Below, one piece after another: positions 7,091 through 41,660 of a stretch of DNA of 64,000 nt (its first letter is position 1; every line of letters begins with the position of its first letter). The notes beneath the pieces were generated by a model. That model searched no databases and was not told the DNA's origin. It worked only from the letters and a program-made list of their open reading frames with translations. This DNA is from Actinernus sp. WN-2022 (Eukaryota; Cnidaria; Anthozoa; Actiniaria; Actinernidae): positions 75,425,032-75,489,031 of the forward strand of contig JAOWCC010000936.1 in NCBI GenBank assembly GCA_030867875.1. The letters are read 5' to 3'. The translations under genes were made by a program, and so were the position numbers.

Positions 7091-7195
7091 TAAATATATA
7101 TAATTTTTCAGAACATATCACAGGCATGTTAGAAAGCCAGTAAACGCAACGTAGTTCTGATGCGAATGAGGAACCTTCATCCCAGTCGAAGCTGA

Positions 7196-7378: not shown

Positions 7379-7499
7379 AGGAGCCCATAACCAGGAGCGT
7401 CCAATCTCCTATACAGGTGTCACAGCGTTTTTACAAGTTGGGCTATTTTTAGACTATTTCTCCCGCCAAATTGTGGGTTGCACCGTGGGGGGAACAAAA

Positions 7500-7577
7500 G
7501 AGTATGGTATGGCGTATAACATGACATGTTAAATAAAAATGCCAATTATACGGTCATCTACAAAGTCAATAAGTTGA
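7500..7577 (+). repeat. Dispersed ~75 bp repeat, copy 1
   Basis: The block GTATGGCGTATAACATGACA followed by an ATACGGTCATCTACAAAGTC-like tail occurs here, at 9478-9548 and at 19621-19695, always in the same orientation. Copies 1 and 2 flank the 1.86 kb element between them. Function unknown. Confidence 0.7.
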
Positions 7578-7597
7578 ACATATATAATATATAATAC

Positions 7598-9454: not shown

Positions 9455-9477
9455 ATAATACAAGAAATCGGAATCTG

Positions 9478-9548
9478 TGGTATGGCGTATAACATGACAT
9501 GTATCCAAAAATGACAAATATACGGCCATCTACAAAGTCAATAGGTTA
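9478..9548 (+). repeat. Dispersed ~75 bp repeat, copy 2
   Basis: Same block as 7500-7577, with several substitutions. It begins 17 bp after the right target duplication of the 1.86 kb element. Confidence 0.65.
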
Positions 9549-12061: not shown

Positions 12062-12563
12062 GGACGAAAAGACGAATTCATCCAACAACTCTACTCTTCA
12101 ACATCCAGGTAGCCAACTGCTCTCTATTTTCTTTTTATGTGTGCCTTAGATTTCTGACTACTGGCCGTCAGCTTAACTAAGATTTATTTTTCCCAATAAC
12201 TTTAACGTCGCTACAATAGTTGCTTATTTAGCCTAGATTTCGTGCTCGTACTTTTTGCTGTTAAATGCTATTTTTGTTGTTCTTATAGTCTGTCATTCTC
12301 ATAAGCGTATTTTACATTTTCTCTAAACGGTTATCTTGAATTTCAAACTGTTTTTACGTAGTGGTAAAACGAAAACCGCTAGTATTCCTAGCAGCAAATC
12401 TCACAAAAAGTGTACTCATTGTTCAGCAAAGACCACACCAAAATCAAAACCATTACACCAAGCGGTAGATTTAAGCCCAAATTTAACTGCACTTCCACCT
12501 TCACCTTTAATAACCATAACCTCCCCACAACACTATAAACAATCTAGCGAACATATTAATACC

Positions 12564-13697: not shown

Positions 13698-13837
13698 AAC
13701 GGGTTTTCGAGTTTCGGGAGGCTACGAAAACCCCAATTGCGTTTAATATAAACACTTTATTCGGACCAACAAACTCAGAAGAGAGAGATAACCAAAATCA
13801 AACAACGAAACATTTTACCAAAGCACACGAAATTCAA

Positions 13838-21180: not shown

Positions 21181-23853
21181 AGAGCCACATGGTATGAAAA
21201 AGGTGAAAAAAGCAACAAATATTTTTTGAATCTTGAGAGATCGAGAAAGAAAAAAAGCTCAGTTAGAAAATTATGTACAGACACTAACACAACTATATCG
21301 AGTCCGAAAATAATCATGAATGAACTTCATACATTTTATTCAAAACTGTATAGTGGAATGGAGTCCCTCTACGATGAAGATATTACAAATACCTTTCTCC
21401 TGGATACAAACATTCCTATTTTAAACGAGGAATCACGGGAGGTATGTGAAGGAAAATTAAGTTATAGCGAATGTTTTAACGTTTTGAAAAGTTTTGAAAA
21501 AAGTAAGACGCCTGGAAACGATGGACTTCCCATTGAATTCTATCAAGTGTTTTGGTCTGTACTCGGAAAGTGCTTGGTTGATTGTCTTAATTACGCATAC
21601 CTACATGGTGAACTGTCCATCTCACAAAAACAAGCTATTATAATGTTACTAGAAAAGAAAGACAAGGATAAAAGATATATTAAAAACTGGCGACCGATCT
21701 CACTAATAAATGTTGATACAAAGATCGCTTCAAAAGTGTTGGTGAAACGACTAGAAAAAATTCTGCCCGAAATAATCCACTACGACCAAAACGCCTTCGT
21801 AAAGGGAAGGTCCATTTTTAACGCGGTAAGGAATATAGATGATATTTTGATGTATACGAAAAAGATTAAAGTGTCTGGTATACTTGTTGCTATTGACTTT
21901 GAAAAAGCGTTTGACTCTGTTAACCACAATTATCTAGTTAAAGTATTGGAAACCTTCAATTTGGGACCTTCCTTTATACAATGGGTTAAAACAATTTATA
22001 AGAATACTTCGAGCTGTATTATAAATAACGGCGTTGCATCAAAGTATTTTAAGGTAGAATGTGGCGTTAGACAGGGAGATCCTCTCTCACCCCTTCTATT
22101 TATTATGGTACTAGAATCTCTGGCAATTAAAATCAGGAAAAACAAAGATATCCAGGGAATTAAAATTGAAGACGAGGAAGCAAAACTAACGATATTTGCC
22201 GATGATATGACTTGCTTTTTAAAGAATAAATCCTCATTTCACCACCTTTTCAACTTAGTTAAGCTATTCACAAAATGTTCCGGTTTAAAAGTGAATGATG
22301 AAAAAACTGAAATAATGGGAATGGGCACATTATCAACGTTACCTCAAAATGAATTTAGTAATCATAAAGTTAAAACTACAGTAAAAATTTTAGGTGTATA
22401 TTTTGATTATGATGAAAAAGGGAGACGGAAATTAAATTTTGATAAAGTCTTGAAACAAATAAAAAAGTCATTAAATATGTGGAAGTGGAGGGGGCTTACT
22501 CTTATAGGCAGAGTTCAAATTGTTAAAACGTTTGCTGTACCTAAATTAATGTATAGGGCGAGATTAATCCCAGTTACAAAAGACTTTATCAAAGAAGCTA
22601 ACACTTTGCTATACGACTTTATTTGGAAAGGAAAAGACAAAATTAAACGCATGGCTCTAATAAATGATATTGACGAGGGAGGTCTAAAGATGCTGGATAT
22701 CCAATCCATGATAAACGCCCAGAGAATAATGTGTATTAAGGAATATTTGGAAAGCTGTAGACATCCATGGAAGCTCTGTTTGGATTTTTATCTTAAGATG
22801 GTGGGAGGGAAATTTCTATTACAGTGTAACTTCGACACCGCAAAACTCCAAATAAATATACCAGCCTACTACAAAGAATGCTTGGATGCGTGGTCTGCCA
22901 TTAACAGTAAATCACCAAGTTCACATAAAGACATCATAAACGAAATTATCTGGAACAATAGATTTATTGTCATTAAAAATAAGTCAGTTTTTAAACCATT
23001 TTATGTTTACAATAAAAATATTATTAAAATAGGAGACTTAATATCCACAAATCAAAAATTTCTCCAAGGACACTTAATAGATAAATTCAAATTAACAACA
23101 GCAAATATTTTAACTTTATTTGGTATAGTTACTGCAATACCTGCTCAATGGAGATCAACCATCAAAACAAATCAATATTGTTTAAATGAGGCAATTACTG
23201 ATACGGTTCAGATTACAGTAGCAGGAGAAAGAGTAGATCTTATAACGGTCTCGACAAAAGATGTTTATAAAGAATTTATAGCATCCAAACAGATACTTCC
23301 CAATGCTCGATTTAAATTACAAAACAAATATCCGAATCTAAAAACTGACTGGAAAAAAATATATTCCCTACCATTCATTGTAACTCTAGATACAAAAACA
23401 AGAGAATTTCAATATAAAATCTTGAACGGTATCTTATATGCAAATCTCAAACTTTTTCGTTTTGGAATTGTAGATTCCCCTATGTGCTCTTTTTGTAAAA
23501 ATGAAGAAGAGTCTATCGAGCATTTACTTTATGGGTGTCATATTATAGAAATGTTCTGGAGCGATGTTTTATCTTGGCTTAAGATAAATAAATTTAACAT
23601 AGACAATTTAACAGAAATAGATGTTATTTTTGGTAAATTTGACGTTGGAAAGGATTTCGTATTGATCAATCATCTTATATTGATTGCTAAACACTTAATT
23701 TATAAATGCAAATATAGAAATACAATTCCATGCATGAAAGTGTTTAAAGCCAATATAAAATATATCTATAATATTGAGACTTATATTGCAAAGAAAAAAT
23801 TAAAATTATTAAAACATTACAACAAATGGGAAAAAATTATACCTATCCTTTAA
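21181..23853 (+). CDS. L1-clade LINE ORF2 (RT), 5'-truncated, intact frame
   Basis: This is an open frame of about 890 codons with no stop or frameshift. It begins in the linker before the reverse transcriptase (WYEKGEKSNKYF), so the endonuclease domain is missing by 5' truncation. Motifs in order are NWRPISLINVD, VAIDFEKAFDSV (A box), GVRQGDPLSPLLF (B box) and FADDM, the catalytic box in the form usual for L1/Tx1. Near the C-terminus CSFCKNEEESIEHLLYGC fits the C-x2-C-x9-H-x4-C zinc knuckle of L1 ORF2. The few upstream codons lie in the target duplication, so no native start exists. The copy cannot mobilise by itself without an endonuclease but is clearly young. Confidence 0.92.
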   Translation, partial: RATWYEKGEKSNKYFLNLERSRKKKSSVRKLCTDTNTTISSPKIIMNELHTFYSKLYSGMESLYDEDITNTFLLDTNIPILNEESREVCEGKLSYSECFNVLKSFEKSKTPGNDGLPIEFYQVFWSVLGKCLVDCLNYAYLHGELSISQKQAIIMLLEKKDKDKRYIKNWRPISLINVDTKIASKVLVKRLEKILPEIIHYDQNAFVKGRSIFNAVRNIDDILMYTKKIKVSGILVAIDFEKAFDSVNHNYLVKVLETFNLGPSFIQWVKTIYKNTSSCIINNGVASKYFKVECGVRQGDPLSPLLFIMVLESLAIKIRKNKDIQGIKIEDEEAKLTIFADDMTCFLKNKSSFHHLFNLVKLFTKCSGLKVNDEKTEIMGMGTLSTLPQNEFSNHKVKTTVKILGVYFDYDEKGRRKLNFDKVLKQIKKSLNMWKWRGLTLIGRVQIVKTFAVPKLMYRARLIPVTKDFIKEANTLLYDFIWKGKDKIKRMALINDIDEGGLKMLDIQSMINAQRIMCIKEYLESCRHPWKLCLDFYLKMVGGKFLLQCNFDTAKLQINIPAYYKECLDAWSAINSKSPSSHKDIINEIIWNNRFIVIKNKSVFKPFYVYNKNIIKIGDLISTNQKFLQGHLIDKFKLTTANILTLFGIVTAIPAQWRSTIKTNQYCLNEAITDTVQITVAGERVDLITVSTKDVYKEFIASKQILPNARFKLQNKYPNLKTDWKKIYSLPFIVTLDTKTREFQYKILNGILYANLKLFRFGIVDSPMCSFCKNEEESIEHLLYGCHIIEMFWSDVLSWLKINKFNIDNLTEIDVIFGKFDVGKDFVLINHLILIAKHLIYKCKYRNTIPCMKVFKANIKYIYNIETYIAKKKLKLLKHYNKWEKIIPIL

Positions 23854-24945: not shown

Positions 24946-26166
24946 AAGAATTTGGTGGTGCTTGCTTGTACAAGTACATTAACACTCTATAAAGTTGAAT
25001 TTTAGCCGAAAAACGGAAATTAGCTTGCTTAAATTAGTATTTGCCTTCATGTGACAAGTTGTTTAGTTTCTTTCCAAATGTATGGGTTTTATCGCTATTT
25101 GTTTTACGAAAGGTTGTGAAGGAATTTGGAAAAGCATTTTATGTCGAAAACCCACTTTTGACGCGCGCGCCAGGAACCCACTTCGCGGTAAACCGAAGAG
25201 CGAATAGAAATTAAGCTAAATTTAGACCGAGACCCGACGAGTTTTAGGGGCCGACCATTTAACTCTTGAGGGGGTGTGGGGGGGGGGGGGGGGGGGGGGG
25301 GTGGGTGTTTTCCGGTCAGCATGAATATTTTTTCCGGAGACCTGATGTCCCAGAATTTTTTTTCGCGTCTCATTGGTATGCAGGTTTTTTTTTTACCACA
25401 CTTCCTTCTGTAGGAATTTTTTTTCTTCACATTTTTCAGTTGGGTTTGCAATACTCCGAATGCTTATATATGTTGGTAAACATTTTTATTTTGGATGTGT
25501 TCCTTCTCGTGCCAATAGCGCATTGAATATTTAAAAAATGTATAGGCACAGCAAAATTCTAGTATAGCTATTTCATTGAAAAGTGATGGCTTTATGGTTT
25601 TCTCCACTGATTGACCGAATGCTATAAACTAGATATCCTACATTGTATATACATCTACTTGTCCTAGATAGATAGATGGATGGATGGATGGATGGATAGT
25701 ATGCTTTATTTTAGCAGGGTGGCCCATTCAGCTCGCAGGCTGGTATCCAGAGGGGCCCTGCTTTAAAATAGTCAAGTGCCAATTTCTATATTATTATGTC
25801 TATTATATCCATCGATGCATGTCCACATACATGCATGCACATATTAAGCCTTCCCTCACTTGAAATCTTCTGTGAAACCTACCTTGGGAAAAGGAATCCC
25901 GGTGTACTATTGAACTTTTGGAAATGCGCCCAAAACTGTCACTGATTTGTTGACAGTAGGAAGCTCAATGGATGCTTTAAGGCAACAAAATTTTACACAA
26001 CTACCAGCATGTAGTGTGCCCTTTATTCGACATGCTAACCAAAAAATGTGCACAGCATTCTGGTAGTTGTGGGACAAATAATTTTAAATAATTATTGCAG
26101 CACAATGAAAACAAAAGGGACACAAATCTCTGCTCTGCCATGCACTAGTTAGTTTTTTTTACCATA
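24946..26166. other. Non-coding: G-run, T-tracts, LINE 3' tail
   Basis: Contains a ~30 bp G-run near 25271-25303 and T-runs at a ~29 bp spacing near 25330, 25356, 25385 and 25415. On the minus strand, a likely LINE 3' end with a (ATCC/ATCT)n tail lies at 25666-25775. The remainder up to the stop codon of the minus-strand gene is probable 3' UTR/spacer. No gene recognised. Confidence 0.5.
25666..25775 (-). repeat. LINE 3' end with GATA/GATG tail
   Basis: Read on the minus strand, a short stretch (GGGCCACCCTGCTAAAATAA) is followed by ATCC and ATCT repeats, the usual arrangement of a CR1/L2-type LINE 3' terminus. No coding remnant is attached. Confidence 0.45.
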
Positions 26167-26344
26167 TCATAGTTGGACGTAAAAGCAATGTGATGGGGTT
26201 CCTTGTGCTTTTGAGTGCTGCTGAAGACCACTTCCTGGGCACTGCTTCTCTTTCAAGCCGTCATATGCCATCCAGTTCCCATGCACATTTATCTTGCATG
26301 TATAATGCTGCCTGCCATAAAACGTCAGGCCATAAAGTGTGTAC
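26167..26344 (-). CDS. Exon 6: USP-like His box and stop
   Basis: After a CTTTGCAG acceptor the exon reads YTLYGLTFYGRQHYTC followed by HGNWMAYDGL, and it stops at TGA 26167-26169. The pattern Y-x-L-x-G-x3-Y-G-R-Q-H-Y followed by W-x-x-Y-D closely resembles the catalytic-histidine signature of ubiquitin-specific proteases (Y-x-L-x-[SAG]...G-H-Y...). The ~25 residues after the box have no match that I know. Confidence 0.72.
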
Positions 26345-29300
26345 CTGCAAAGAAATGGAGTGGGCTAACATGTCATGCTGCAAAATGAAATAGTTGATGA
26401 AAAATGTAATTTCAATTCAATAACCTTCATGAACAAACAATAGGATTTATATTTTTATTTCATCAACAAACACACACTATGGTGTGACCATGTTTTATAG
26501 ATCTGTGGACATTCTCTGTAGACTGACAGACAACAACAGGCATATGGGTGACGAAGGATATATTAAATGCTCATAGTGTGTAGGAAGCATGGCATGAAAA
26601 CGATTGATGAATATGGGGAAAAGAATGGTGCAAGTGTAGTGGGCACTTGTTCCATTACCTTTTTCCAAGAAAGATGATTCGCTGGGGGAAATCCGTCTCT
26701 GCAGCTAGTACACCAGAAGTTGCCAAGAACTCGACATTGGCAACAAGGATCAAAGGGGCGCCATCTGGAAACTGACGATTACTTTGGGTCCGGATCCCAT
26801 CACAGTATGCATGCTGTGCCAATCTATTAGAGAATAACAGAAAATTACGTAGCTATGGAGTAGTTATTGTACATGTAAGATAAATGAAAAACACAAAATG
26901 CAAATAGTGCTGCAAGAAATTTGGAAATGCTTACATGTGGCCCCCTCTACCATCAGGCACTGTCATTGTTCCATAATAGAAGGGTGCACCATTGGGAACT
27001 AGAGGGCCAGGGAATCGTCTGCTGCACCTCGTCTGCTTGGCACACGCAGACCATGTTTCAAGTATTGATTCCAGCAAGGTCAATCCAGGGAGGCTGTAAT
27101 TCTGAAGGCTAAAATAGATCATTTGATCATTAGATAAAAACAAATAATGATCAATGCTGGAGAAAACAATCAGTAAATATCCCTTCTTACCCCTCTTATA
27201 TTTCAAAGTACATTCCTTTGATATTAATAGGACACTACTTCAAATTTAAAGCTGTAAAATTTGATGACAGGGAAATACTCTGGGCAAAATAAACAATTAA
27301 TTAATTATTGGAAATGATCTGCCTCCACTGTTCTAAAATGAAGGCTCGGTCACAGTCAGAGTAAGATTCAAATAAACCAATGACTAATCCACTTAACATT
27401 GCATAGTAAAAATGAGTAGGTTAATAAATCCAGACAATATTGGTTTTACATGTACACTGTATATCTTTGAGTAGTCATTTTCTACCGTGTATTTTATATT
27501 TATTCATTCATCTAACTTACCCAAGAGCAACAGTGTTGGCCCATCTCACAGAAACTCCTGTCAGAGGGCAGAGTAAGGACGAACAGCTTGATGCCACATT
27601 CGATTTCATGAGTGGTATCAGGTACTGAGTAAATAGGTTCTCCTCATTACCCCAGATGTCTAGATCACCATTTGGCCCAACTTGGAGAGGTGAACATCCA
27701 TTTAGCCATTCAAGCTTGGCTTCTGCAAATTGTCCACTTTCAGTCAAGTTCAAGGATCTGCACAATGTCTGAGACACAAGTTCATTACTGTTCTCTAAGT
27801 AAGAACGCATCTTCGCTGACTCACTAGTTAGTGCATGAAATATCATTAGGCAGTTATCCATAGGACATGTGTTCCTTAAATTAACAGCATTCCCAAGAAA
27901 CATAGTTGTCTGACCTCCCCAGGGGATAACCATCAGAGGTGGTGGTGGTGGTGGAGGAGGAGGTGGTAGTGGTGGTCCTTGTGGTGCTAACTTTGCAGCA
28001 GTGCATGGCGGTTGTGGTTTGGGAGGTTGTTGTGGTGTTGACTTTGCGGCAGTGCTTGGTGGTGATGGTGTATGTGGTCCAGGAGGTTGTTGTGTGGCAG
28101 TCCTTTGACAGCTGTAATAGTCTCTTTTGATTGATTCGATTTTCATTGCCTTTGAGTACCCTTTCTCCTGTAGAGCCCCTTTCCGGAAGCCCGCAATTTT
28201 TTCTAGGTACAGGTCTAGCTGGCTTACATACATTTTATCCAGAGTTCCTGCCTCTATAGCCTTGCTCCAGTCGATGTCATCTACTGATTTGGAAAGCTTC
28301 TCAGCTTTAGCAGCAGCTCTGGACTCTTTGGCAAAATGTGCCTTCAGCATTATAGCATATTTCCTTTTGAATTCGGTTTGAACTGCATTCCTTAGATCTT
28401 CTCCAGTGTAGTTTTCTACTATGTCATCTACATTTGCCAGCATTTTGTTGAGGGTGTCATTTTTATCATAATGTACTGACTTAGTGGCACATCCATCCTC
28501 CGCATCAACTTCCCTTTCCTTGATTTCAATGGGGCCTATTTCTCGGATAACTTCCTCCATTTTTACTCTTGGGCAAAACTCATCGATCTTTCCTTTTGTT
28601 TGGTCTTGAGAATCCTGCCACAAGTCTGGATTCTTATAGTGAAATCCAGGCCTCTCTCCTTTGTATGATGGCACTGGAGTGGGTACTCTCTTCACTGGAG
28701 GTCCTCTCCATTCACATCCAAGAGTAGTTTCATGGATGCCACACATCTTCTCTCCATCAAAGCATCCATCCCTGATTCCTTCGATTGCACCATCATGCAC
28801 AACATAATGGTCTTTAATGAATTGCAGTTGCTTAAAGTAATATGAGCTCCCAGCACAAGAGCTTTGCTTAGTGTGTGATGAATTCTGGACCTTTTTCATA
28901 AACTCATCATCAAAGAAAAAAATATCTGATACCAGATAGCTAGGGCAACGAGAATGAATGGTGGTACCTAGGCACTTTTTTCCCTCATAGCGCCGCATTA
29001 CCTCCTCTGCACACTGCTTTGCAATGTCCTCCTGCCTCTTCGACTCAAGGCCATTGAACTCATCGTTAGTTAGACTACATATTTGTTCTTGATTTAGACC
29101 CTCAAAAATGGGCACCTTTGGTACAGGGATGGATCTGCCATCACCTGTCGCTTCATTCAAACTTCGCATCACCTGCTCAGCAATATGTGAGCGTGAGTCA
29201 TTTGGTGCATAATGAACTCGAGCCTGCATATCAAGATTAAACACTTGAAAATATTCTGCCATCCTGATTTGCACCAGTTTTTCATGACAGGACACACCTG

Positions 29301-32300
29301 GACCAGCATCACTTGTCTGGATATCTATGGGCCTAGAATAAAGAAAAAAATATATTTAATACAAAAAGAAATTATCTTCATCTTTGGGTAGGGGTTTATT
29401 GAAATAATATCAATAACCAAAACATATGTAGTTCTTGAAATTGTTACACTTATTGATATGTGATCATGTTGTTGCACCCCCCTTGCCCCCTAAACAACTT
29501 TCCCCAAGTTTGGTTGTCTGACAGTGTTCCCTTAAAAGTTTGATACTGGCCATAAAATTACCGTAAAAGCTCTAAATTTCCAACCTTCCCAGGGGGGGGG
29601 GGCTTATTGGAGAGGGGGGCTTATTAGAGAGGAGGGGGGGGGGGGGGGCTTATTCAAAACTCGTTATTCAAAACTGATCAAGACGAAGTCATTATTTTAC
29701 TTTAGATATGAAATGTCACCCAATTTTATTGAATACTATACATTTGTAGATTCTGAGCGTCTAAGTCGGTAAAACCAACGATAATCGAATGGAACCAAAT
29801 ACAGACTTTGGATTCCAAGCAATATTTGTGCTAAAACATAGTATTCTCCTTCAACAAACTATTCTGTGTGTATGACAGATTTTTCTGGGGAGAGGGAGGG
29901 GGGCTTATTTAGAGAGGAGGGCTTATTGCAAACTTGGAGCTCTAGAGTTGGGGGGCTTATTAGAGAGGGGGGCTTAAAAGAGAGTGGGTGCTTAATAGAA
30001 TGTTTACGGTATGCCCACATGAACAAGGTACATTGTATCAACATAAATATCAAAATCTTTATACCTGTGTTGTGGGAGACCAAGTGACTCAATGTACACA
30101 CGACATTCCCTCACTACATGTAGGTGTTCTGTTTTGGAAAATGCATCTGAAATCCCATACAGATTCTCTGTTGAACAGCATTTCACGGTTTCTGCAATCA
30201 CATGTTTGAAAAATACGTAAGAAACATGAAATTCTATGTCTAAATTTATTTTTTGTCCTGCAATTCTACCGAAACCATTCTAACACACTCTAGTAGGGCT
30301 ACATTTTCTACATGGCTCTTATCCTTAAAATGCAATGGCATACAATGGCCTTGGGGCAAAAAGGCATGTGCCTAAAACTGCAAAATACTCCTTCCTTTAC
30401 ACTCAGTTGTGGGTCCAAGAGAGACAGACCAAACATGTTACCTATACCGGTGTTTAGCTTACACTAAAATAGGGCTGTGGCTAATAAAATTATTCGACCA
30501 CTGAAATGGTTGTTTCATGTTGAGGGGTGGGGGTATGGCTGCACTTTTACAAATACGAACTACCGGTAGGATTGAAAATTCCTTGAAAAGTGTAATTTAT
30601 GTTAGTTGAGGTACGAAATTCACAGAAATGAATATTTTGCTGGCACGGAACAGAAGCCTGGGGAGAGTAGTGCTGAGAATTATGGGTAATGTAGTGTGCC
30701 ATAAGTAGGTGACTGTTAAGAGGTTGAATTCATTCTAGGTCAGCCTTGCTACCTTGCTTCATTTTGGAAGAAACCGAAGTTAAAAAGAACACCGAACGCA
30801 ACAACGAAGACCTCATTTCTCAGATGTGATTACTCTTATAAAGAACTATGGCAGCCCTTAAAAGGTCTAATGACTCACAAAGTGCAGCAGAACAGATTAG
30901 AGAAATTAAGCAGATAAAAAACTTCAGGTGGAACGCCATCATTCAAAAAGAAAAGCAACGAGGAACAGTACAAATCCGCTAAAGCCGTACTAGAAGCGGT
31001 CAAAGATGAGGAGGAGTAGAAAACTACCTACAGAGCAGAAGCGAGAGATGTGAAATTGACTAAGCTTTTCATATCCTACAGAGCCTAACATCAAAGAGTG
31101 AGGGAAACTCCAAGCCTTAATCTGGTTCCCAGATTACCACTTTATACCACACAGACGACACAATCGGAAAACCCACAGAAATGCTTGCTACACAAACTAT
31201 ATGGACGCTGGTTGGCGAATTGTCCTGACTTCCTTGCCGCTCGTCAAATGCTCCATAAACGACTAGGCGAAAGTGTCGACACTTACGAAAAAGGTGTAGT
31301 ATGTTCCGGTTAACTGAAATTTTTGATTTTGTCATTGTGAGTTCCTTAGAGGTTGATTGTGGTATTAGTATACGTAACGTACCAGAGGTTGAATGCCAAC
31401 AACTTGAAAACATTAATACTAAATTTAAAACTTCTCAGAGGCGCAACTCTCTTAGGGGAAGATTACGTAGAACTTTTAAACAATGAGTAGCAATGGTGTG
31501 CCTCGGTTTAATTGTTTTATATGTTGTCTACATTGGCTATAGCTACTTATTGCTGTTTTTGTACATTCCTGGTCCTTAAAAGGCACAAAATAATAAGTCT
31601 GCTCTTGATGAAGCCGTGTTTGTAGAAGAAGCGATTAATGAACTATTGTGTCTTGATTGTATTTCAGAAGTGTCAGACCAAGTCGAATATTGTTAACCAT
31701 TATCTGTTTCTTTTCAGAAGTCCGTAAGTTAATTCTAGATCTTACACATACAAATAAGTGTATCTATATAAGAACAAGTTTAGATGCGAAGATTTGTCTG
31801 TCCTCAAAGGAATTTGTTAAGCCTGGAGCACTTCATGTGCAGTCTTTCGACTTGAATGCGGTTATTACGACGCAGTAATTTTTGAAGAACAAACGACATA
31901 TTGGTTGTTTTCCTGGATATTTACAGACGAATCGCGCGTTTTGCCTTTCGGTTTCAGTTCAATACCATATTTCGTTAAGGCTGAATTGCTCAAAACTGCT
32001 ATTTAAAAAGTGGAGATCTGAAGGAAATCTACTGTAGTGTATATATACTATGGACTTGTAGCAGCATTCAGTTATATTCTAGCACGGCAAATTGGCAGTT
32101 TACAAGTGCATTCCGATCTGTTAAAGTTCGGTTCCTACCTAATGAAGTTAATTCTCATTGGAAATATATTTGGTGCCCTAATTAATTTAACGCGTCAGAT
32201 GCTACCATTTCTGCTAAAGATAAAAGAATTCAAAGCTTGTCAAAAGATCTTACCGCAGTGTTCGACTCATTAAGTTCCACATTCCATGTTAAGAAAATTG

Positions 32301-35300
32301 GCATTATTTGCGGCAAAGTTATTTTAGTTGTAATTGCGTGCAATGGGGAATGTTTCTAGACTTATGACAAGGAATATTCACGCAGTTATCACTCTGCAAT
32401 TCCGCTACCAAATCAGCAGTTGTATGTTACTAGGCTTATTCTGTCTGTTATAGAACTTAGGTCGTTAATAAACTTAACGGTATCCCTTTATGACCTGTTA
32501 AGCATAGACTGACTGAGTCTATTCCAGTGACGCATCCGCTACAGCATGTGGAAGTACATTAGAATTTGAAGGAAAGGTTTTTCCACCAAAATAGGTCAGA
32601 AATTGAAATGTCTCAAATTTCTACTTAATAGAGCCGGTTGTATACAGTCTCCCTGTCTGTCAAAGCGTTTGCTCATAAACTGTGTCATGGCTTACAGACA
32701 TTTATATAAATGTAGCCAAAATTGTCATGAACGTTCTAGGTGCCATATCTACATTTCATCACTTTAGATATTTATCACAGACCTATGGATTCCTAGATAG
32801 TTAAATTGTTATGCAGAAGAATTAGTAGAAAAATAGATTATGACGATTATACTATTAATGATGACGGATTTCTTAGTACTGACCAATTATGGGGTCAGCA
32901 CACGTGCGATAGGTTCGCATGCCGTTACAAGGCTAAGTTGCCGAAGATTAATACTCATTATCAGCAACTACGAACTTGCGGGGTAAATGCATTTTACAGA
33001 CAATGTAAACAATGTAGCAAAAATTGTCACGAATGGCTCTGAGGTCCCCTATCTACAGTTTCGGTATCGCTTTAGATATTTATCAGACCTGTATCAAGGG
33101 AATAAGTTTGGAGGCACAATGGCCGGATTCCAAGATACCTAAATTGTTATGTCGAAGAAATTAGTAGAATAATAGATTATGACGATCATCGATACTATTA
33201 ATGATGACGGATTTCTTAGTATTGACCATTTATGGGGTCAGCACACGTGCGATAGGTTCGCATGCTTGTTACAAGGCTAAGGTGCCAAAGTTTAATACTC
33301 ATTATCAGCAACCACGAACTTGCGGGGTAAATGCATTTTACAGACAATGCGGTAAACAATGTAGCCAAAATTGTCATGAATGGCTCTGAGGTCTCGGCCT
33401 ATCTGCATTTTCGGTATCGCTTTAGATATTTATCAAACCTGTATCAAGGGAATAAGTTTGGAGGCACAATGGATTCCAAGATAGCTAAATTGTTATCTTG
33501 AAGAAATTAGTAGAATAATAGATTATGACGATCATCGATACTATTAATGACTACGCATTTCTTAGTATTCAACCTATATGGGGTCCGTACACGTGCGATA
33601 GGTTCGCATGCTTGTTACAAGGCTAAGGTGCCAAAGGCTAAGGTGCCAAAGTTTAATACTCGGTATTATTGACCACGATATTGTGGGGTAAATGTATTTT
33701 CCCAGGATAGGGAGTTACAACAACAATTGCTTATGTCAGCCTGTCTATCTGACTCGTAAAGTAATTGATTACACGAGTAAGTAATGCTAGAGGCATGGTA
33801 ATTGTACCGCTGTGAAATTGGGTCATTTCTGGCCTGTACTTTGCTCAGATGGGATACATTGGAGTGATTTCGTCCAAGATTGGGTAGTTTTAAGCAATAA
33901 ATAATCCTGAGTTGTTTATGAGAGGTAAAGCCAATTAACAATTGTATATTTGGCAATAAATGTTTAAGTTTTTCAACTAGGAATGGTGTTATGTTTCTGC
34001 ACAGATTTTGAAAGAATTTGTGTAACACGTAATCGCTGAAAATGTGTTTTCAGTCGGCCCTAAAGGGGTACCCTGAAGGGGTGTATCAGGCATTGTGGCC
34101 ACGCCTTGGATGGGCATTATAATCTTACCATGTTATGAAATTTATCGATACTTCAATACTGACATGGTCTTTGCCATATCACTGCTTTCACTGTATGCCC
34201 TTATTTTTCGTTTGTTTCATTTTTCTTTCTCCAGAAGTTGCCAACGAGTTGTGGTTATCAGACATTAACGAGTTGTGGTTATCAGACATTACCAGTGATA
34301 GAACCAAACAGCTAAAGGAGAACCTGAAATAAAGCAGTTCTAGCATCCAGATCCAGAGGGACTACTGAAACCTACCTTACAGCATTTAATAGATGGACAT
34401 TATTTGCACATGAATTCTTATAAGTAAAATCTCTTTCCGCCAATCCATTTCATTGGCCCTATATTTACAGTATTTGATAGAGACATCCAAGTCTACATCT
34501 AGCATAAATCGTATTTTGTCCAGTTATTAAGGTTGTATATACATATATATGTCTAAGGCCGGAATTAACGAAATTCCAGAGATATTTTATTTGGATCCAT
34601 AAGCAGAAACGCCTTTTGCGTATGAAAAAGCATGTTAGCCACTCTATTTTAGGGGATTGTTTAAGAAATTATTTAAAGATACTGTCCCCGATAAATCCAA
34701 ATTTAGTACACATTCCAAAAGGTCTGGCGGAGCTTTTTCAGCCGCTAATTCTCGTATCCCAGACAGAAACTTCCAGCGGCATGATAGATGGAAATATGTT
34801 AATGCTAACTTCAAGTCAGTGGCAAAGGCTAACGGGTTCACCACTCGGGCCCTACCTTTGTAAATCTATATGCATGTCGGGCTCGGCTGACCGACATCCC
34901 CAAGTATCCTATATGACAGTGTGTGTCTGAATTGTGTAGTGGAGGCAAAATGTGTAATTTATGTTAGTGGAGGTACGAAATTCACAGAAATGAATATTTT
35001 GCTGGCACGGAACAGAAGCCTGGGGAGAGTAGTGCTGAGAATTATGGGTAATGTAGTGTGCCATAAGTAGGTGACTGTTAAGAGGTTGAATTCATTCTAG
35101 GTCAGCCTTGCTACCTTGCTTCATTTTTTTTTTTTTAAATGATTGGATCGAGAAGCCGGAGGCATAACGAACATTAAGGGAAACCATTCTGGCTAGGTTA
35201 GAATCGTCCGAGTTTAATTTAAATCGGCATAAGATTCTATTTATCATATCGGACTAAATGTATTTAGATGACCTCAGCTCCCAGAGTTGGCGGCACTGCA

Positions 35301-38086
35301 TTGGTGGGAGTATACGTTCCCGTTTAGTCCACACAGTGGTTTTGGGTTTTCGTATCCGGCAGTGTCGCAATAATTAATAAGAGTAATAAATAGAGACCAA
35401 AAGTTGAAGAACGAATGCATGTAAGCTATTATGAGCAATTATATGAATAAACGCTGTCGGGCTCGGCTGACCGACATCCCCAAGTATCCTATATGACAGT
35501 GTGTGTCTGAATTGTGTAGTGGAGGCAAAATGCAATAAATTTTATTGATCTTTGCTGAAATACAAGCCCTGCTTTGTTTATAGTAAACAAAATACCGTAA
35601 ATGCTCTATTGAGCGTCCGGGCGCTTATTTAATTTTTGGGGTCCGACGGGGGGCGCTCAATAGAAACGAGGTGCTTTAATAAAAGAGAGAGGCGCTTATT
35701 TCCAAAAATATCTCAATACCATGATGGAAACCAAACACATTCAATCACTTCTATGAATGGTTTATACAGTAAAATATAACGTTTTACATCAGGCTTAATG
35801 GATTAGAAGCTAGATGGTGTGTCCAAAAACCTGAATAAAATGTATAGCATGTATGAAATGTTTCTTGAAAAGACTTTTATTAGACTTCTTTGACTGCTTA
35901 GCCTGGGGTGGGAGTGGGGGTGCTTAATAGATGGGGGCGCTTATTTGAGAGGGGCACTTATTTCAAAATTTCTCCTTAGGGGGGCGCTTAATAGGGAAGA
36001 GGCGCTTATTAGGTGCTGGGCGCTTAATAGAGCATTTACGGTAGTTGAAAAATTACTTATTAATACCTTTTAGTGTTTCCAAGGAATGCACAACAGCATT
36101 CAGTTCTGTCAGCCTCAAACTCTTGCAACCCTCAAGTATAGGCAAAGTTTTTCCCACTCTGCCTAGAAGAATATTAATACGTAGCAACTCTCGGTCAAGG
36201 TGATCTCCTCCTTCAACACAGCGAGTGTAGTCTTCCTCAATGTTCATCATTTCAAACTGGAACAAGGAGTCCCTGAGCACCAGAAGCAATGTCACTTCCT
36301 CCCTTCTGAGCTGATTACCACACTGCTCTCTGGAATCTTCATACTCGGACTGCAGTTGAGTACCATAATCATTGTCATCAGTATCTGGTGCCGGTTTGGT
36401 GTCACTTTCTAATTCATGTTCCTCTGGGAACAGATACCTGATACTGTAGAGGTCATTGAACCAGTTTGTTGCAGAAGAGGGATATATTTTCTTGGGTTTA
36501 CAGGTAACAGTGACAGTAACATCTTCCCTGACAAACTTGTCAGTGTCTTTATAGGGCACTTCCCTCATGTCATTGACTAGCAGGATGACTCCTGGAGACA
36601 CATAACCACAATCCTGTGGGTAATCAGATGTTGGTAACTTAAACTGCAGATTTTCAGCTGAAATCTGAACAGGTGTGTGGATGGGCCTGCTAAAACCTTC
36701 GGATGTCCCACACCGCAAGTATGCTTTGTCATCCATGGCTCTGCGAACGGCAAGCTTTTGGTATGGGGAACCACTTTTGAATATAAGTCTTGTGTAGTTC
36801 TTAGCATGTGCCCTGTTGTAGTGGATGTTAACATGGGCATATGATGCCTTCTTCTCTGAACGCTTAGCTGTCCACAGACCTTTACCTCTGTGTTGCATTG
36901 CCTGCCTCGACCTCTTGTTTTTGGGCTTTCCCCAAGATCTTACAGTTTCTTTGCTCTTTACTATAAAAGGGAGGCCTTTGGCTTTGAGGTGTTCGTTGGC
37001 TATGCGTCGAAGCTCCCTTCCCTGTATCCTCCTTCTTCTCCCCACCGTCTTTCGTGGGCCTTGAGCTGCTCGTATAACACATCATAGACAGCCTTTTCTG
37101 CCCCTCTGTCTATCTTTGTGTGACCTTTATTCTTTCCTAATTGCCTTCTTAATCCTGTCTTCCATGTGTAGAATATTCTACGTTTAACTCTTTTCTTCTG
37201 GTTGTCTGCATTTGTGGACTTCAATTTCTCAAGGCGCTGGCGTTTGTTTGCAATGTCAAACTCCATGTCACTTATCTCATCTGGGTCACATCTTTTTCTT
37301 TTCCTGTCAAGTTTCTCTGAATCCTTTTCTATTTCGAGATCCTTAGAAATTTTGGAGATCAAACCCTCAAGGTTTTTCTCTGATTTCTGACCAGCTTCAT
37401 CCTCTCTTTGTTCCACTTCCTGGGCAAATTGGACCGTTTCAGCATATATACGGCTAGCAAAACTCTCGTTCACACCCAAGAGCATTTTCATACTGGTTCT
37501 TGATAATAGCAGGTTTAAAATACAGTAGACTACAGCAAAGTCTATCGCAGACGAGAGGAGTTTTTTCAGCATTGAGAAGAGTGAAGTCAGAAGCAAAAGG
37601 GAATGTTTCTGTATACCAGCCACTGGAGTATCAGCTAGGTTTTCATCTAACAGGAAATCAATGCCTTTGCACAAGGAGATGTTGCTAATCGGTTTCTCAA
37701 GAAGAAGCATACAGACCATTTCTAGCCGATATTATGACGACAGGCAGTCCATTCGTTTGAAGCAAAATATCTCTGAACTGCACCCGTGCGTTTCTACTGC
37801 TATCACTCGCTGAATTTTCTAAATTTGCAGCGTACTCATCGAACGCAACATGGAATGGCAAACACGTTTTCGCTGAGAGCTCGTCGAGTAAACATAAAAG
37901 GGACTCATATGAACTCACTTTCGATGAAGAAGCTGAACGATAAATCTTCTCCTCTAGATTTGATCTTGCCTCTGAAACGGTCTTGTTACATTCAGAGATC
38001 CGAAGGTGAGCTAAACCTTGCGAAAGAAGGGAATTTCTTTGTCTTGTTCTGTTATTATGGGCAGTCGAACCTCGCGAGGACGCCAT
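26167..38086 (-). CDS. Six-exon DDE-like / SAP-like / USP-like transposon gene
   Basis: Exons are 38086-36067, 30191-30065, 29332-27521, 27108-26935, 26823-26659 and 26344-26167, all with GT-AG borders. Phases match at all five junctions (1, 2, 2, 2, 2), giving about 1490 residues. In order: an unrecognised N-terminal region, a K/R-rich coiled-coil-like segment, a core with conserved acidic residues (AMDDKAYL, TSDAGPGVS, then NDSRSHIAEQVM) that fits an RNase H-fold DDE transposase, a SAP-like helix pair, a poly-proline linker, and a domain with NTCPMDN and RQHYTC boxes resembling ubiquitin-specific proteases. Exon 1 carries two frame changes, so the gene is either decayed or miscalled there. 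The large intron holds a DIRS-type element and two MITEs. Family name unknown to me; host domestication cannot be excluded. Confidence 0.72.
26659..26823 (-). CDS. Exon 5 of the DDE/USP-like gene
   Basis: Among the possible acceptors, only CTAATAG at 26824-26829 gives an in-frame join. The exon reads LAQHAYCDGIRTQSN through FPQRIIFLGK and ends AAAAG/GTAATG. The body resembles the middle of a papain-fold peptidase only loosely. Confidence 0.65.
26935..27108 (-). CDS. Exon 4 of the DDE/USP-like gene
   Basis: The acceptor ATTTTAG and donor CACAT/GTAAGC enclose 174 bp reading LQNYSLPGLTLLES and ending PDGRGGH. It contains three cysteines, including CAKQTRC. Phase is 2 on both sides, consistent with exons 3 and 5. 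Confidence 0.7.
27521..29332 (-). CDS. Exon 3: DDE-like core end, SAP-like, poly-Pro, USP Cys box
   Basis: About 604 residues in one uninterrupted frame. It begins PIDIQTSDAGPGVS and reaches HYAPNDSRSHIAEQVMRSLNE, the probable second and third acidic residues of a DDE core. The middle has a charged helical region and a SAP-like pair of helices (DKMYVSQLDLYLEKIAGFRK). A proline-rich linker (27910-28090 region, with ten consecutive prolines) leads to MFLGNAVNLRNTCPMDNCL. Its N-x-x-N-T-C arrangement matches the catalytic-cysteine box of ubiquitin-specific proteases. Acceptor TTCTAG at 29333-29338; donor TTGG/GTAAGT at 27520. An AT-rich minus-strand intron follows. Confidence 0.78.
29559..30011. 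mobile_element. MITE with TACCGTAAA ends (copy 1)
   Basis: TACCGTAAAAGCTCTA at the left pairs with a TTTACGGTA end at 30011. The interior contains repeated GGGGGGCTTATT blocks and G-runs. It lies in the intron between exons 2 and 3. A second copy of the family lies at 35593-36043. Confidence 0.7.
30065..30191 (-). CDS. Exon 2 of the DDE/USP-like gene
   Basis: This 127 bp exon lies between a TTGCAG acceptor (ending at 30192) and a CACAG/GTATAA donor. It joins exon 1 in phase 1 and exon 3 in phase 2, reading KETVKCCSTENLYGIS and then ESLGLPQHR. It sits right beside a MITE ending at 30011. Confidence 0.7.
30849..31090 (+). pseudogene. First ORF of the DIRS-like element, remnant
   Basis: ATG at 30849 reads MAALKRSNDSQSAAEQIREI and continues as a charged helical peptide through several frame changes (EKQRGTVQ..., then KAVLEAVKDEEE). 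It has the position and composition of the gag-like ORF1 of DIRS elements, with no definite domain. Confidence 0.5.
31580..32350 (+). pseudogene. DIRS-type reverse transcriptase, broken
   Basis: Across frames one sees ALDEAVFVEEAINELL, a ...DLTHTNK... region, FDL near 31848, and LPFGFSSIPY near 31938-31970, all characteristic of DIRS-group reverse transcriptases. At the catalytic box the frame reads YIYYGL (32040-32057), where the group normally has Y-x-D-D-G-L, so both aspartates are gone. Multiple frameshifts and stops. RNase H-like remnants follow to about 32500. Confidence 0.65.
32780..33700 (+). repeat. Threefold tandem duplication inside the DIRS-like element
   Basis: A ~343 bp unit is present three times, with the landmark GTGCGATAGGTTCGCATGC near 32905, 33250 and 33592. 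Two units keep the frame reading INDDGFL, LWGQHTCDRFACRYKAK... and CGVNAFYRQ; the other frame is disrupted. This is the region normally found once, at the end of RNase H in DIRS elements (W-G-x-H-T-x-D-R-F-A). The duplication must postdate functional replication. Confidence 0.7.
34550..34863 (+). pseudogene. DIRS-type tyrosine recombinase C-terminus
   Basis: The frame 34657-34863 reads FKDTVPDKSKFSTHSKRSGG and RIPDRNFQRHDRWKYVNA. H-S-K-R (the HxxR box) and R-H-D-R-W (the H/K-x-x-W box) are the C-terminal catalytic boxes of tyrosine recombinases. The catalytic tyrosine region looks shortened. The stop lies 12 bp before B1. The N-terminal half of the recombinase is not readable. Confidence 0.7.
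34875..34952 (+). repeat. Split direct repeat B1
   Basis: 78 bp starting TGTCGGGCTCGGCTGACCGA and ending GGCAAAATG, matching B2 at 35455-35532. It contains a GTCGG...CCGAC stem. Confidence 0.85.
35593..36043. mobile_element. MITE with TACCGTAAA ends (copy 2)
   Basis: TACCGTAAATGCTCTATT at the left pairs with the complementary AATAGAGCATTTACGGTA at the right. Subterminal GGGCGCTTATT blocks repeat on both sides. It ends 23 bp before exon 1 of the minus-strand gene and belongs to the same family as 29559-30011. Confidence 0.8.
36067..38086 (-). pseudogene. Exon 1 of the DDE/USP-like gene, two frame changes
   Basis: The ATG at 38084-38086 opens MASSRGSTAHNN. The frame changes near 37700-37719 and again near 37000-37045, where neighbouring frames overlap with no room for an intron. 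Segments in order: ~120 residues unrecognised, a hydrophobic/helical region, a K/E/R-rich stretch with a nuclear-localisation-like KRKRCD, then the conserved block (LYEQLKAHERRW, RSRQAMQHRGKGLW, AMDDKAYLRCGTSEGFSRP) and an acidic patch. The exon ends ACTAAAAG/GTATTA at 36067, leaving one base of a split codon that the next exon completes. The two indels could be real decay or assembly errors. Confidence 0.7.
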
Positions 38087-38109
38087 ATTGCAATTAAATT
38101 TTCCCGCCT

Positions 38110-40457
38110 TGCGTCTTAACTTGTGCCCGCGATCCTGAAGAAAAATGTGAGTCCTGGTTGGAAAAGAATGCATTGGCGAGCTATTTCGACAAAATGAAGG
38201 AGTGTGGTGTAACATCCATCTCACACTTGGAGTTGGAGGATATCGGAGAAGCAGACGCTATGTCAGATCTTCAAATGACCAAATTCCAAGCAAGACGGCT
38301 CCTCAGAGCATTCAACGAGTGGAAAACGAAGAAAAATCAAGAAAAGAAGGGAAAAGGACAGCAGCAAAGTGCAAGCTTCCTTGGACTTGTTACCAACAAC
38401 AAAGCTGTTGTTGCCCGGGGGGGTACTTACATGAAAAATGGGTATGTATGTGAGGCCAAGAGGCTCAAATCCTGACCCTGTTTGACCCAATCCGAGCTCC
38501 AAAACCCTGATTGCCCCCTTTTTGGGGAAAAAAAACCCTGAATGCCCCTTCTTTAAATTGTTTTCAAAAGAAGGTCGGATATATATCCCGGCCGGTATAC
38601 CGCGTACCGGGATTGCATGCAAAATACGGAACATTTCAAGTCGGGACGTAGCATTGGGTAAACAAATCAGCAGATGAAGTACATAGATAAGTACTGAAGT
38701 ACGGGAACCTCAGTGCTTGCATGTGGGAAGGCGATCAAAATGCGGCAACAGAATGTCTTTTTTTGACATAGTAGCTAAAAAAAACCTAACTGCCTAAAAA
38801 ATACTGAACCCCGACCCTGACTGCACCCAAATTATACTCAAATCCTGACCCTGATCTGCCCAAATCAGGCCAAAACCCTGACCCTACCTGCCCAAACGGA
38901 GCTCAAAACCCTGACCCACCCGGGCGGCACATACATAATACGTCACAAACATGAGTACCCCCCCCCCCCCCGGGTGTTGTTGTCACACTTCCGCCTGCGT
39001 TTCAAGGCTTCTTGGGCACACGAGATGGCGGAAAAAGTGTTATTGTGCCCACAAATACTTTAGCAAGGAAATGGAAAACATTATTATAACAATCCATTAA
39101 ATCCATTCCAAAGGCTCAGTAACAGTTTCCTGCTGAGAATGTGCGAATCACGACAGCATATGTTCAAGAACCAGAGGAAATGTGAGAACTGGGCAAGGAA
39201 AGAACGCGACGTTCGAAATTCATTGATATTAGCTTTAGAAAGAAACACACAAGGCTGGACTCCGTACTACAAAAAAAAGAGCATTTACGGTGTGTTTTCA
39301 ACCTTGCAAAAAAAGTACCCTGTTGTTGCTGCGTTAACAGAGGAAAGTGTAAAAAAAGCAGACTATGAATGCTGCATTGAGTTCATGGACTCCCTTGAGA
39401 GTTTAAATCTCACCATCAAGGGACATCAGGAAACAGTGGAAAACGCTGTTGCAGATGCTCTGGGGCCTTCAGGGAGTGTAAGCATCAGGTAGGATTCTTT
39501 TATTATTTTTACATAGACCTACCGGAAATGACCGAATAATGAGGTCAATTTTGGTATAAGCCCCCCGGGGGTCATCAACAGTATTTTATAACTATTAAGA
39601 TTGCTTTGGGAATTGGGCATTGAAACTCAGGCTCCCAGTGATCAATGTCCAATTGGCAAAGCAAATCTCTCTATTGAAATAGGTGTATTCATATTCTGGC
39701 TTGTTCAAGCATACAGGGCCACTCATTTGCATATCCATATAAATCACTTTATTTTTTAATGCAGGCCCGTTCTTACTAATAGTAAATTGTATTAATAGCT
39801 TAGTATAACTTTTTTTGTTTTCCATTGTACGAGCATAGAGACCTTGTTTTATGCTCTAAATATATATTATTATTATTAATAGAATGACTTGGCTCTGTAT
39901 ACTTGAAGTACTCCACAAGGTAAAAATATAGATGCAAGGAATATTTACAATCCTTTCATTTTGGCTCGTGGTGATAGTCCAAATTGATAGACAGGGTTTT
40001 CCTTTTGCACTTGCATTATTTTCTGGCTGACTGTGCAAAGTCTGTGAAATTTCAGCCTTCATTTATGTGTATATATTTTTAGTATACTCCATAACTGGCC
40101 TTAAAATTTATACTATTAAGAGTGGACACATTCATTAATAGAAAAGGAGTAAATACTGCTAAAACAAACAAGCAATCAAACACAAAAGTCTACACACAAA
40201 AAGCTGTAGGTGACTGTGCAATGATTCCACATGCATTTTTTTTTACAGAAAATTCAGAAATGTATGAGTTCTACCATCCTTTGAAGAAGTCTGTCTCAGA
40301 GGCAAAGGCAATGATTGAGACCCAACTTTCCCATGTAGAGAAGCTGGTTGATAAATGCAAGTGCAAGTATGGGGCTTCGGCACAACAGAAACATAAGGCA
40401 AAGAAGGAGATGAAGAATAACAAGAAAGAAACAAGGAAGCGCTCATTGGTTGAATGA
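38110..40457 (+). pseudogene. SAM-like-domain transposon gene, decayed, divergent partner
   Basis: Just 25-70 bp from the start of the minus-strand gene, a plus-strand frame without its own ATG reads CESWLEKNALASYF, GVTSISHLELEDIG and FQARRLLRAFNEWK. This fits a SAM domain (~65 residues). After GLVTNNKAVV the frame is cut by a MITE (38414-38974) and resumes as TLPPAFQGFLGTRDGG. Stops at 39088-39120 and a frame change near 39180 follow, then KKYPVVAALTEESVKK... to a donor-like site near 39480-39490. A last exon (40250-40457, after a poly-T/ACAG acceptor) reads EMYEFYHPLKKSV and a K-rich tail. It may encode an accessory protein of the same element. I recognise no enzymatic motif. Confidence 0.6.
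38414..38974. mobile_element. 561 bp MITE inside a coding exon, 8 bp TSD
   Basis: The inverted ends CCCGGGGGGGTACT and AGTACCCCCC...CCCGGG bound the element. TGTTGTTG flanks both sides (38406-38413 and 38975-38982). The 8 bp duplication suggests the hAT superfamily. The interior is rich in CCCTGACCCTG-like repeats and has no transposase. Without it the SAM-type frame would continue unbroken across the site. Confidence 0.85.
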
Positions 40458-40798
40458 GCATACAGAAATTTACAATTTACATCAGAGATTCTATATTTTT
40501 GAAAGACATATTTGTCTGCAATCCAAATAGTTTATTACAACGTTCTAGTTATTTATTAAAGGACATCTAATAATATATATAATATAACATGCAGTATCAG
40601 ATAGAGCCAACCTTTTTTTGCTGTTAAACTTACGTTTGTTTGACAAAAGATCAGGATTGGTACTATTTTACCATTAACATACAGAAATTTACAGTTTATG
40701 TAAAAAGATACTATATTTTTGAAAGACATATTTTAGTCTTGCTTATAATAGACATACAATCCTAGAAATAGTTTATTTTATGACAATGTTCCAGTTAA
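40458..40798 (+). repeat. Duplicated segment downstream of the SAM-type gene
   Basis: Two related blocks (near 40461-40570 and 40676-40800) share ACATACAGAAATTTACA and CTATATTTTTGAAAGACATA. This is a short diverged tandem duplication in the probable 3' region. Confidence 0.55.
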
Positions 40799-41166
40799 AC
40801 ACGAAGACGCACTATAAAAGGGCCTCTGGCCAGGGTTTGTCGCCTTCAGTTGTCAATCAACCTTTGTGCAGGCCGAAGCTCCATGGATTTAAATAACAAG
40901 CGCGATATTTAAATTACCAACGTTTTCAGCTCTATTTCCAAGTAATACATTTCCAGAATGTTATCATCCAGTGCATTTATAGTGGAGCATTCATGTTCCA
41001 TTGCAAGGATTTCGTTTGTTACTTTAATTCAGTACAAACAACATAGAGTTATTCTGAGCCTTGCAACAGCGTGCAAGTCCAATATCATGCCATTGTAGAT
41101 TTGAATTTCAAATTTTGAGTTGTGAATTGGAGGTTGTCCTATTTCTTTTATAGTGCGTCTTCGTGT
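40799..41166. mobile_element. 368 bp MITE flanked by TTAA
   Basis: ACACGAAGACGCACTATAAA at the left is matched by its complement at the right end. TTAA occurs at 40795-40798 and 41167-41170. A TTAA duplication is typical of piggyBac and Kolobok-type elements. Non-coding. Confidence 0.8.
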
Positions 41167-41359
41167 TTAAAGAAAAATGCTTTCAACACAAAACATCTTG
41201 AATTTTAATTGATTGTTGTAGTTTTTCACACAAGAAAAACAGTTTAGTGTTATTTTAAAAGAGAACAATGTCTCTGATCTTAGGCTGTCAATGAGTTTAT
41301 AATCCTCCCCTCCTCCTCTCCCTTCCAAAAAGCCCCTGTCTGGAAGCCCTAAAAACAAA

Positions 41360-41660
41360 CTAGGCACCCCATGGGCTTAATATGAAAGCGGGTACAGCAT
41401 ATACCGGTAGTGCCCCACAGCTAATACATAGTTTTAATACTAGACTATGAACAGGTTCTATTTTGCTGGAACTCTGTAAAGCGCAAACTCTCTCTTTGAG
41501 AGATGGAATAATTTTGTAACATTTTTTTTTCGCCTGAAGAATGGTGCATGATTTTTTTTCTCCTTCTTTTGTTGTTGTATGCATTTTTTTTCTTCCAAAA
41601 CGCGCTTGCAGGATTTTTTTTTTTCAAAAACACCCCCCTTTTTTGAATATTCTATATGGT
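41360..41660. repeat. Periodic T-tract segment
   Basis: Runs of 8-11 T recur near 41521, 41551, 41584 and 41612, about 30 bp apart, as in 25330-25415. Likely degenerate remains of one repeat family. No coding potential. Confidence 0.4.

Follow-up and report, generated by a model that had tools for sequence, protein, structure and literature searches.

A probable two-gene DNA transposon in the Actinernus genome

A 64,000-nucleotide stretch of the genome of the cnidarian Actinernus sp. WN-2022 (contig JAOWCC010000936.1, positions 75,425,032 to 75,489,031; hereafter, the window) contains a decayed DNA transposon. Its main gene, on the minus strand, is predicted to encode a transposase with a C-terminal domain resembling ubiquitin-specific proteases (USPs), and its putative second gene, divergent from the first, a SAM-like protein. 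Searching the 1.39-Gb assembly that contains the window (G000), we delimited the element by comparison with a second copy (copy 2; locus L011, contig C888) that is 99% identical to it. Homology between the two extends from about 25244 to 41638 of the window, and the flanks are unrelated. Copy 2 ends in GGGGCCGACCATTTAACTCTTG at both sides, with 0 and 1 mismatch in 22, and TA lies outside each of these terminal inverted repeats (TIRs); the TA target site was read from its two flanks, the window copy keeping its left end only. An inverted-repeat search within the window alone did not find the element ends because the right repeat is lost there, and the ends came from copy 2.

Sites matching the TA-plus-repeat pattern (26 bases, at most 3 mismatches) numbered 665 in forward and 688 in reverse orientation, 1,353 in the genome altogether, compared with 0 and 0 for a reversed control of the pattern. 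A few pairs of these sites face each other 0.3–0.9 kb apart, an arrangement suggesting short non-autonomous derivatives. Exon 3 of the main gene has at least 77 genome matches on many contigs (73 of 3,664 first-look candidates were scored). The element is a genuine DNA transposon with TIRs, a TA target site and dispersed copies. A TIR-like sequence at two other loci (L017 and L021) was dropped as a candidate for element ends; both loci share the same extended sequence.

Exons 1–5 differ between the window copy and copy 2 by 0.0–0.6% substitutions. Neither copy is intact throughout, since exon 1 changes frame in the window copy, and in copy 2 exon 3 has one stop codon and exon 6 is interrupted. 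The window copy is dead and unable to make the full protein because exon 1 shifts frame twice, the right repeat is gone and 4.9 kb of additional DNA lies in intron 1 (Table 1). The insert in exon 6 of copy 2, of about 1.1 kb, holds two inverted matches to window positions 2891–3014. Repeated stretches of the form aataagcgcccc/taagcccccc lie in the introns of the window copy at 35590–36046 and 29600–29990, with one inverted pair listed.

Table 1 Features of the window element and of locus L012 (window positions unless the locus is named)
Feature	Position	Strand	Remarks
Left TIR (3' side of the transposase gene)	25247..25274	+	TA precedes at 25245-25246
Exon 6	26167..26344	-	His box, W-x-x-Y-D, stop; relatives P0014, P0016-P0019
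Candidate catalytic Asp (NWMAYDG)	26260..26262	-	Invariant in both seven-row and nine-row sets
Candidate catalytic His (GRQHY)	26305..26307	-	7/7 rows; 8/9 rows of larger set
Exon 5	26659..26823	-	Upstream of exon 6 in P0014, P0016, P0017; also in L053
Exon 4	26935..27108	-	Matched by P0015; within single frame of L053
Exon 3	27521..29332	-	Candidate second Asp and Glu, SAP-like segment, proline-rich linker, peptidase Cys half
Candidate catalytic Cys (NTCPMDN, within NLRNTCPMDN)	27865..27867	-	Invariant in three alignments; aligns to USP Cys
Candidate catalytic Glu (HIAEQVMRSLNE)	29176..29178	-	44 residues past Asp; invariant in relatives' alignment
Candidate second catalytic Asp (TSDAGPG)	29308..29310	-	Motif comparison with relatives
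Exon 2	30065..30191	-	Phase fits both neighbours; copy 2 identical at 127/127 bases
About 4.9 kb in intron 1	30591..35527		Absent from copy 2; likely later insertion
Exon 1	36067..38086	-	N-terminal part with first acidic motif; frame changes twice in window copy
Candidate first catalytic Asp (Asp-Asp of DDKAYLRC)	36728..36733	-	DDKAY also in P0009, P0020 and L017
SAM-like gene, first piece	38131..38445	+	SAM_TNK E 0.0022, SAM_2 E 0.0042, neither reaching its curated cut-off
About 0.56 kb between SAM-gene pieces	38414..38974		Absent from copy 2; likely later insertion
SAM-like gene, second piece	38997..39429	+	tblastn with L019 and L020 proteins
Right limit of copy 2 homology	41590..41625		Right TIR missing in window copy
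First of two open reading frames (ORFs), locus L012	4234-7206	-	The two are a YqaJ-peptidase and a transposase ORF on opposite strands
Second of the two ORFs, locus L012	1864-3474	+	Strand opposite to the first

Gene structure and relatives of the transposase

A preceding interpretation of the window, made from its letters only (the sequence-only reading), had proposed six minus-strand exons joined in phase. All introns are GT-AG, the phases agree at 5 of 5 junctions, and exons 2–6 join into 818 residues free of stops; the part of the model that fails is exon 1, which is not open in this copy. There the related protein P0020, itself one continuous frame, aligns as three segments in frames -1/-2/-1, and the same region of copy 2 is a single open frame of 711 aa. 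The exon 1/2 junction is placed solely by phase and by conservation in copy 2. The exon 2/3 border is contiguous in five relatives (P0006, P0007, P0009, P0010 and P0020), among them one annotated protein (P0010) that is possibly itself spliced. The annotated Porites lobata protein P0015 matches exons 1, 3 and 4 in the same order, and exon 5 DNA lies immediately 5' of exon 6 in three of the five exon 6 relatives (P0014, P0016 and P0017). At locus L053, which lacks introns, the counterpart of the exon 3 peptidase part and exons 4–6 forms one 466-aa frame that holds the whole peptidase domain, with the DDE-like part upstream in a different frame. A one-frame peptidase at locus L012 matches exons 3 and 6 of the window in order, with E values of 2.1e-12 and 1.6e-4, and exons 4 and 5 had no match of their own in the genome search with it. 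A DUF445 match in one exon 1 frame (E 2.8e-5), below the Pfam cut-off, was set aside.

The motifs that the sequence-only reading had named in exons 3 and 6 are present where it placed them; the segment of exon 3 that it called SAP-like is not matched by Pfam SAP. DDE transposases bear D, D and E on an RNase-H fold. We infer a DDE-like core in the N-terminal part of the protein, which fits the candidate acidic motifs, and of four sequences measured, three have 44 residues and one has 42 between the second Asp and the Glu.

Ten relatives (P0001–P0010), 37–66% identical, came from a protein search with exons 2–6. Six of them (P0001–P0005 and P0008) combine the Glu motif with the Cys box (NTCPxDN) in one frame; TSDAGPG is additionally present in P0001, P0002 and P0005, while P0003, P0004 and P0008 start downstream of it. 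The remaining four terminate ahead of the Cys box. With the peptidase alone as query, a second search gave nine relatives (P0011–P0019): three for the Cys half (P0011–P0013), five for exon 6 (P0014 and P0016–P0019) and the P. lobata protein. A third search, for full-length proteins, yielded only P0020, which spans the N-terminus, both Asp motifs and the Glu motif and ends shortly after. Porites is the source of two of these 20 relatives. A proline-rich linker of unconserved sequence precedes the peptidase in the window, P0001, P0002, P0011 and P0013. When viral contigs and prokaryote contigs were scanned with alignment A1, once each, tblastn found no relative.

Locus L017 encodes a distant relative, a one-frame transposase of 1,233 aa (4240–7941 of the locus, minus strand), in which no peptidase boxes were seen by eye, so that the peptidase may be non-essential for some members. 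Beside it, at 8045–9544 (plus strand), a SAM-domain protein is encoded divergently (SAM_2 E 2e-9); it had no tblastn match to the SAM-like gene of the window.

The open frame of that SAM-like gene starts 12 bases from the ATG of exon 1 on the opposite strand. Its counterpart in copy 2 is 93% identical, and divergent genes adjoining the transposase at loci L019 and L020 are 34–38% identical to it and 54% identical to each other. On these sequence grounds we assign it to the window element as the second gene.

A probable USP-like cysteine peptidase at the C-terminus

The Cys box of USPs reads N-T-C-x-x-[ND]-[SN], as is also seen in USPs in the Protein Data Bank (PDB). The C-terminal domain of the transposase matches this motif in exon 3, and exon 6 holds YTLYGLTFYGRQHY and NWMAYDG, which supply H-Y followed by W-x-x-[FY]-[DN] and thus the order Cys-His-Asp. 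We aligned the spliced window sequence with L053 and five ISL2EU-type sequences (seven rows, L015 omitted); N-T-C-P-x-D-N, H-Y and W-x-x-Y-D-G are invariant in 7 of 7 rows, at 28–34% identity to the window. The candidate His is kept in 8 of 9 rows of a larger alignment, the exception being L015. The papain-like fold of USPs comprises thumb, palm and fingers, the last with zinc-binding cysteines; here, four Cys (C-x4-C and two single residues) are invariant in both alignments, and they do not form two C-x2-C pairs. A strict catalytic-residue pattern was passed by 21 of the 26 one-frame copies examined. The other five comprise L034, which has a stop, L044, with Arg for His, L048, with an altered Cys box, and L032 and L038, which were filtered out, although L038 appears intact by eye.

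We compared the domain with a USP profile of four sequences (a consensus and pieces of USP8, USP15 and USP2). Single comparisons gave E values of 0.005–0.016, those of the whole domain being 0.0065, 0.0088, 0.016 and 0.012, compared with 0.38–0.62 for control parts of the same elements, and the long alignment pairs the candidate Cys, His and Asp with their USP counterparts. Exon 6 alone selects the USP His box in register, with 0 of 100 shuffles scoring as high. Sequence and profile searches of the PDB were uninformative, one of them returning two TetR chains only (E 0.6).

The same peptidase in ISL2EU-like transposons

The peptidase recurs elsewhere in this genome on a different protein. At loci L012, L013, L015 and L016, a YqaJ ORF terminates in the peptidase in one uninterrupted frame, and a second ORF lies on the opposite strand. 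YqaJ E values are 4.1e-16 (L012), 2.3e-10 (L015) and 2.5e-15 (L016), and the L012 YqaJ protein also carries SAP (E 7.9e-8). In a Pfam test made on L012 alone, the opposite ORF was identified as a DDE_Tnp_4 transposase (E 7.9e-40), with THAP (E 0.0089) and HTH (E 0.0053) matches, both below Pfam cut-offs. By these domains, L012-type loci have the layout of ISL2EU, a DDE/HTH/THAP-like transposase ORF with a YqaJ ORF opposite. L014 is likewise ISL2EU-like, with a YqaJ protein ending in a USP-like peptidase.

The L012 peptidase, used as query against the genome, matched at 110 places. Twelve are full-length, including L012 itself, at 97–100% identity (the 11 further ones at 97–99%), and one of the 12 has a stop codon. 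Since the 12 matches are 97–100% identical and 11 are free of stops, L012-type loci were probably active recently, and the module probably served recent transposition. No YqaJ was seen in the window element, and its transposase differs from that of ISL2EU, the peptidase being what the two share. From this distribution we infer that the peptidase is an exchangeable module of at least two unrelated transposon groups in one genome.

Comparison with known transposon-encoded proteases

Ginger1 transposases, which occur in Hydra among other hosts, carry a C-terminal cysteine protease, OTU or Ulp1 (PMC2836005), and in this respect resemble the window protein. The Ginger1 transposase has a Gypsy-integrase-like DDE domain, whereas Pfam finds no integrase in the window element, which was therefore not placed in Ginger1; its peptidase fits the USP boxes and is set apart from the Ginger1 OTU and Ulp1 domains by Pfam search alone. 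A Trichomonas vaginalis protein reported in one sentence of the same paper combines transposase_11 with Peptidase C19 (PMC2836005) and so likewise joins a transposase to a USP domain; its transposase is pfam01609, a difference drawn from the description, whereas the core of the window protein matches no Pfam family. Helitrons, too, carry transposon-encoded deubiquitinase domains, VTD and OTU, and such domains, fused to transposon-associated ones, are also reported in cnidarians (PMC9741609). The VTD family is described as having an invariable Asp-x-His (PMC9741609). Two residues before its His, the window family has R or G in 7 of 7 rows, and its Asp follows the His; VTD identity was rejected because Asp-x-His occurs in 0 of 7 rows.

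ISL2EU belongs to the PHIS superfamily and comprises a transposase ORF with DDE, HTH and THAP and a YqaJ ORF (PMC4482050); a look for "peptidase" and "ubiquitin" in the main text of that paper found neither word. Target-site duplications of ISL2EU are AT. Among the titles and abstract openings listed from the open-licence literature, none concerned this element or an ISL2EU peptidase. The element and the shared module thus look new, while the transposase–protease fusion as a kind is not, because Ginger1 with OTU or Ulp1, Helitrons with VTD or OTU and the T. vaginalis C19 protein are in print. Roles comparable to those proposed below have been put forward, as speculation, for proteases of other families in the Ginger and VTD papers (PMC2836005, PMC9741609).

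Other elements in the window

Four further regions of the window resemble mobile elements. An ORF of LINE-type reverse transcriptase lies at 21142–23853 (plus strand; RVT_1 E 2.1e-41), and a Ty3-like gag with a weak aspartyl-protease match at 12327–15643 (plus strand). An ORF of 559 aa at 46195–47874 (minus strand) is transposase-like by eye and has no Pfam match at E 0.01. ORF pieces at 54610–57266 (minus strand), which match DUF6589 and, in a Cys-rich stretch, CXC, each below the Pfam cut-off, are probably another mobile-element gene.

Proposed role of the peptidase

We propose, with a probability of about two in three, that the window holds a decayed two-gene cut-and-paste transposon encoding a transposase with a C-terminal USP-like cysteine peptidase and a divergent SAM-like protein, and that the peptidase is an exchangeable module. 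Binding to the TIRs, cutting at TA and the joining of DNA would be the work of the DDE-like part, as the motifs and the element ends suggest. The role of the peptidase would be to free the transposase itself or, alternatively, DNA-repair and chromatin proteins where the element inserts, of ubiquitin or a ubiquitin-like modifier, with the outcome that the transpososome would be spared degradation and the break repaired. Of the two roles suggested by the sequence-only reading, self-processing and countering ubiquitin-dependent control, the second is plausible by analogy only. That two unrelated transposons have the module in common, one on its transposase and the other on its YqaJ helper, favours an enzyme acting in trans over a tail that does no more than cleave itself.

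Several results weigh against this proposal. The transposase core matches no transposase, integrase or other family in Pfam, sequence searches of the PDB gave nothing credible for it, and its AlphaFold model (P0009) is of low confidence (pLDDT 50.5), as is that of the one-frame peptidase at L053 (pLDDT 33.3). Comparison of the two copies gives mixed signals of selection: of the six exon 3 codons that changed, five alter the residue, yet exons 2–5 differ at 8 of 2,272 bases, compared with 27 of 2,080 non-coding bases, 19 of these 27 being in intron 2. One locus (L015/L044) has Arg at the position of the candidate His. In the comparison with USPs, column shuffles reached the score of the whole domain in 1 of 60, 1 of 100 and 0 of 100 cases; exon 3 by itself selects the USP Cys box, a score that 6 of 100 shuffles reach, and for exons 4 and 5, each by itself, 51 and 76 of 100 do so, which leaves no USP signal there. 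Against the USP profile, hhalign assigns exon 3 by itself a probability of 0.75% and the whole domain one of only 3–7%, so that the likeness, at the level of motifs and a weak profile, is suggestive and not proof. Neither the Pfam UCH model nor any PDB USP sequence gave a significant match to the peptidase, and we therefore call the domain a USP-like cysteine peptidase rather than a USP. The sequence-only reading had proposed a deubiquitinase-like peptidase joined to a transposase; what holds of its proposal is that this is a transposon and that one protein has a DDE-like core and, in its C-terminal domain, USP-type boxes in USP order, the match to USPs beyond the boxes remaining at the weak-profile level.

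The strongest competing explanation is a papain-fold protease that processes the transposase or its companion, or one directed at a SUMO-type modifier, rather than a deubiquitinase. The link to USPs lies in short catalytic boxes only, the proline-rich linker could be a cleavable hinge, and in ISL2EU-like elements the domain is on a different protein. We nevertheless regard this explanation as unlikely, because the His box and the Cys-His-Asp order fit USPs, transposons with OTU, Ulp1, VTD and C19 domains are already described (PMC9741609, PMC2836005), and the linker is unconserved in sequence. Less probable again is a USP-like fold that has lost catalysis and serves in binding. Inactive insect relatives of transposon deubiquitinases are reported (PMC9741609), and the Arg at L015/L044 would fit such a fold; C, H, W, Y and D are nonetheless invariant in all seven rows, which come from two transposon groups and show 28–34% identity to the window, and most one-frame copies (21/26) retain the strict pattern. 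A domesticated host gene, to which the exon–intron structure and the divergent neighbour gene might point, is very improbable given the TIRs with TA, the recent second copy with near-identical exons 1–5 (0.0–0.6% substitutions), the copies on many contigs, the frame breaks and the lost right TIR.

A broader version of our proposal for the transposon and its USP-like peptidase is more tentative, and we consider it somewhat less probable than its converse: the element would represent an undescribed two-gene superfamily (SAM-like and DDE, TA target) with an active deubiquitinase, the module would have moved to or from ISL2EU, and control of ubiquitin would generally be required for transposition in these genomes.

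Proteases for ubiquitin or SUMO occur in several transposons that are unrelated to one another, and as to the reason the published accounts cited here offer speculation only (PMC9741609, PMC2836005). In this animal, one peptidase family is found in two transposon groups of a single genome, on the transposase in one and on the YqaJ helper in the other, and its presence in a second, unrelated transposon suggests that mobile DNA profits from the peptidase activity. As the recent ISL2EU-type copies could be expressed and assayed directly, the need of a transposon for a deubiquitinase becomes a testable question.

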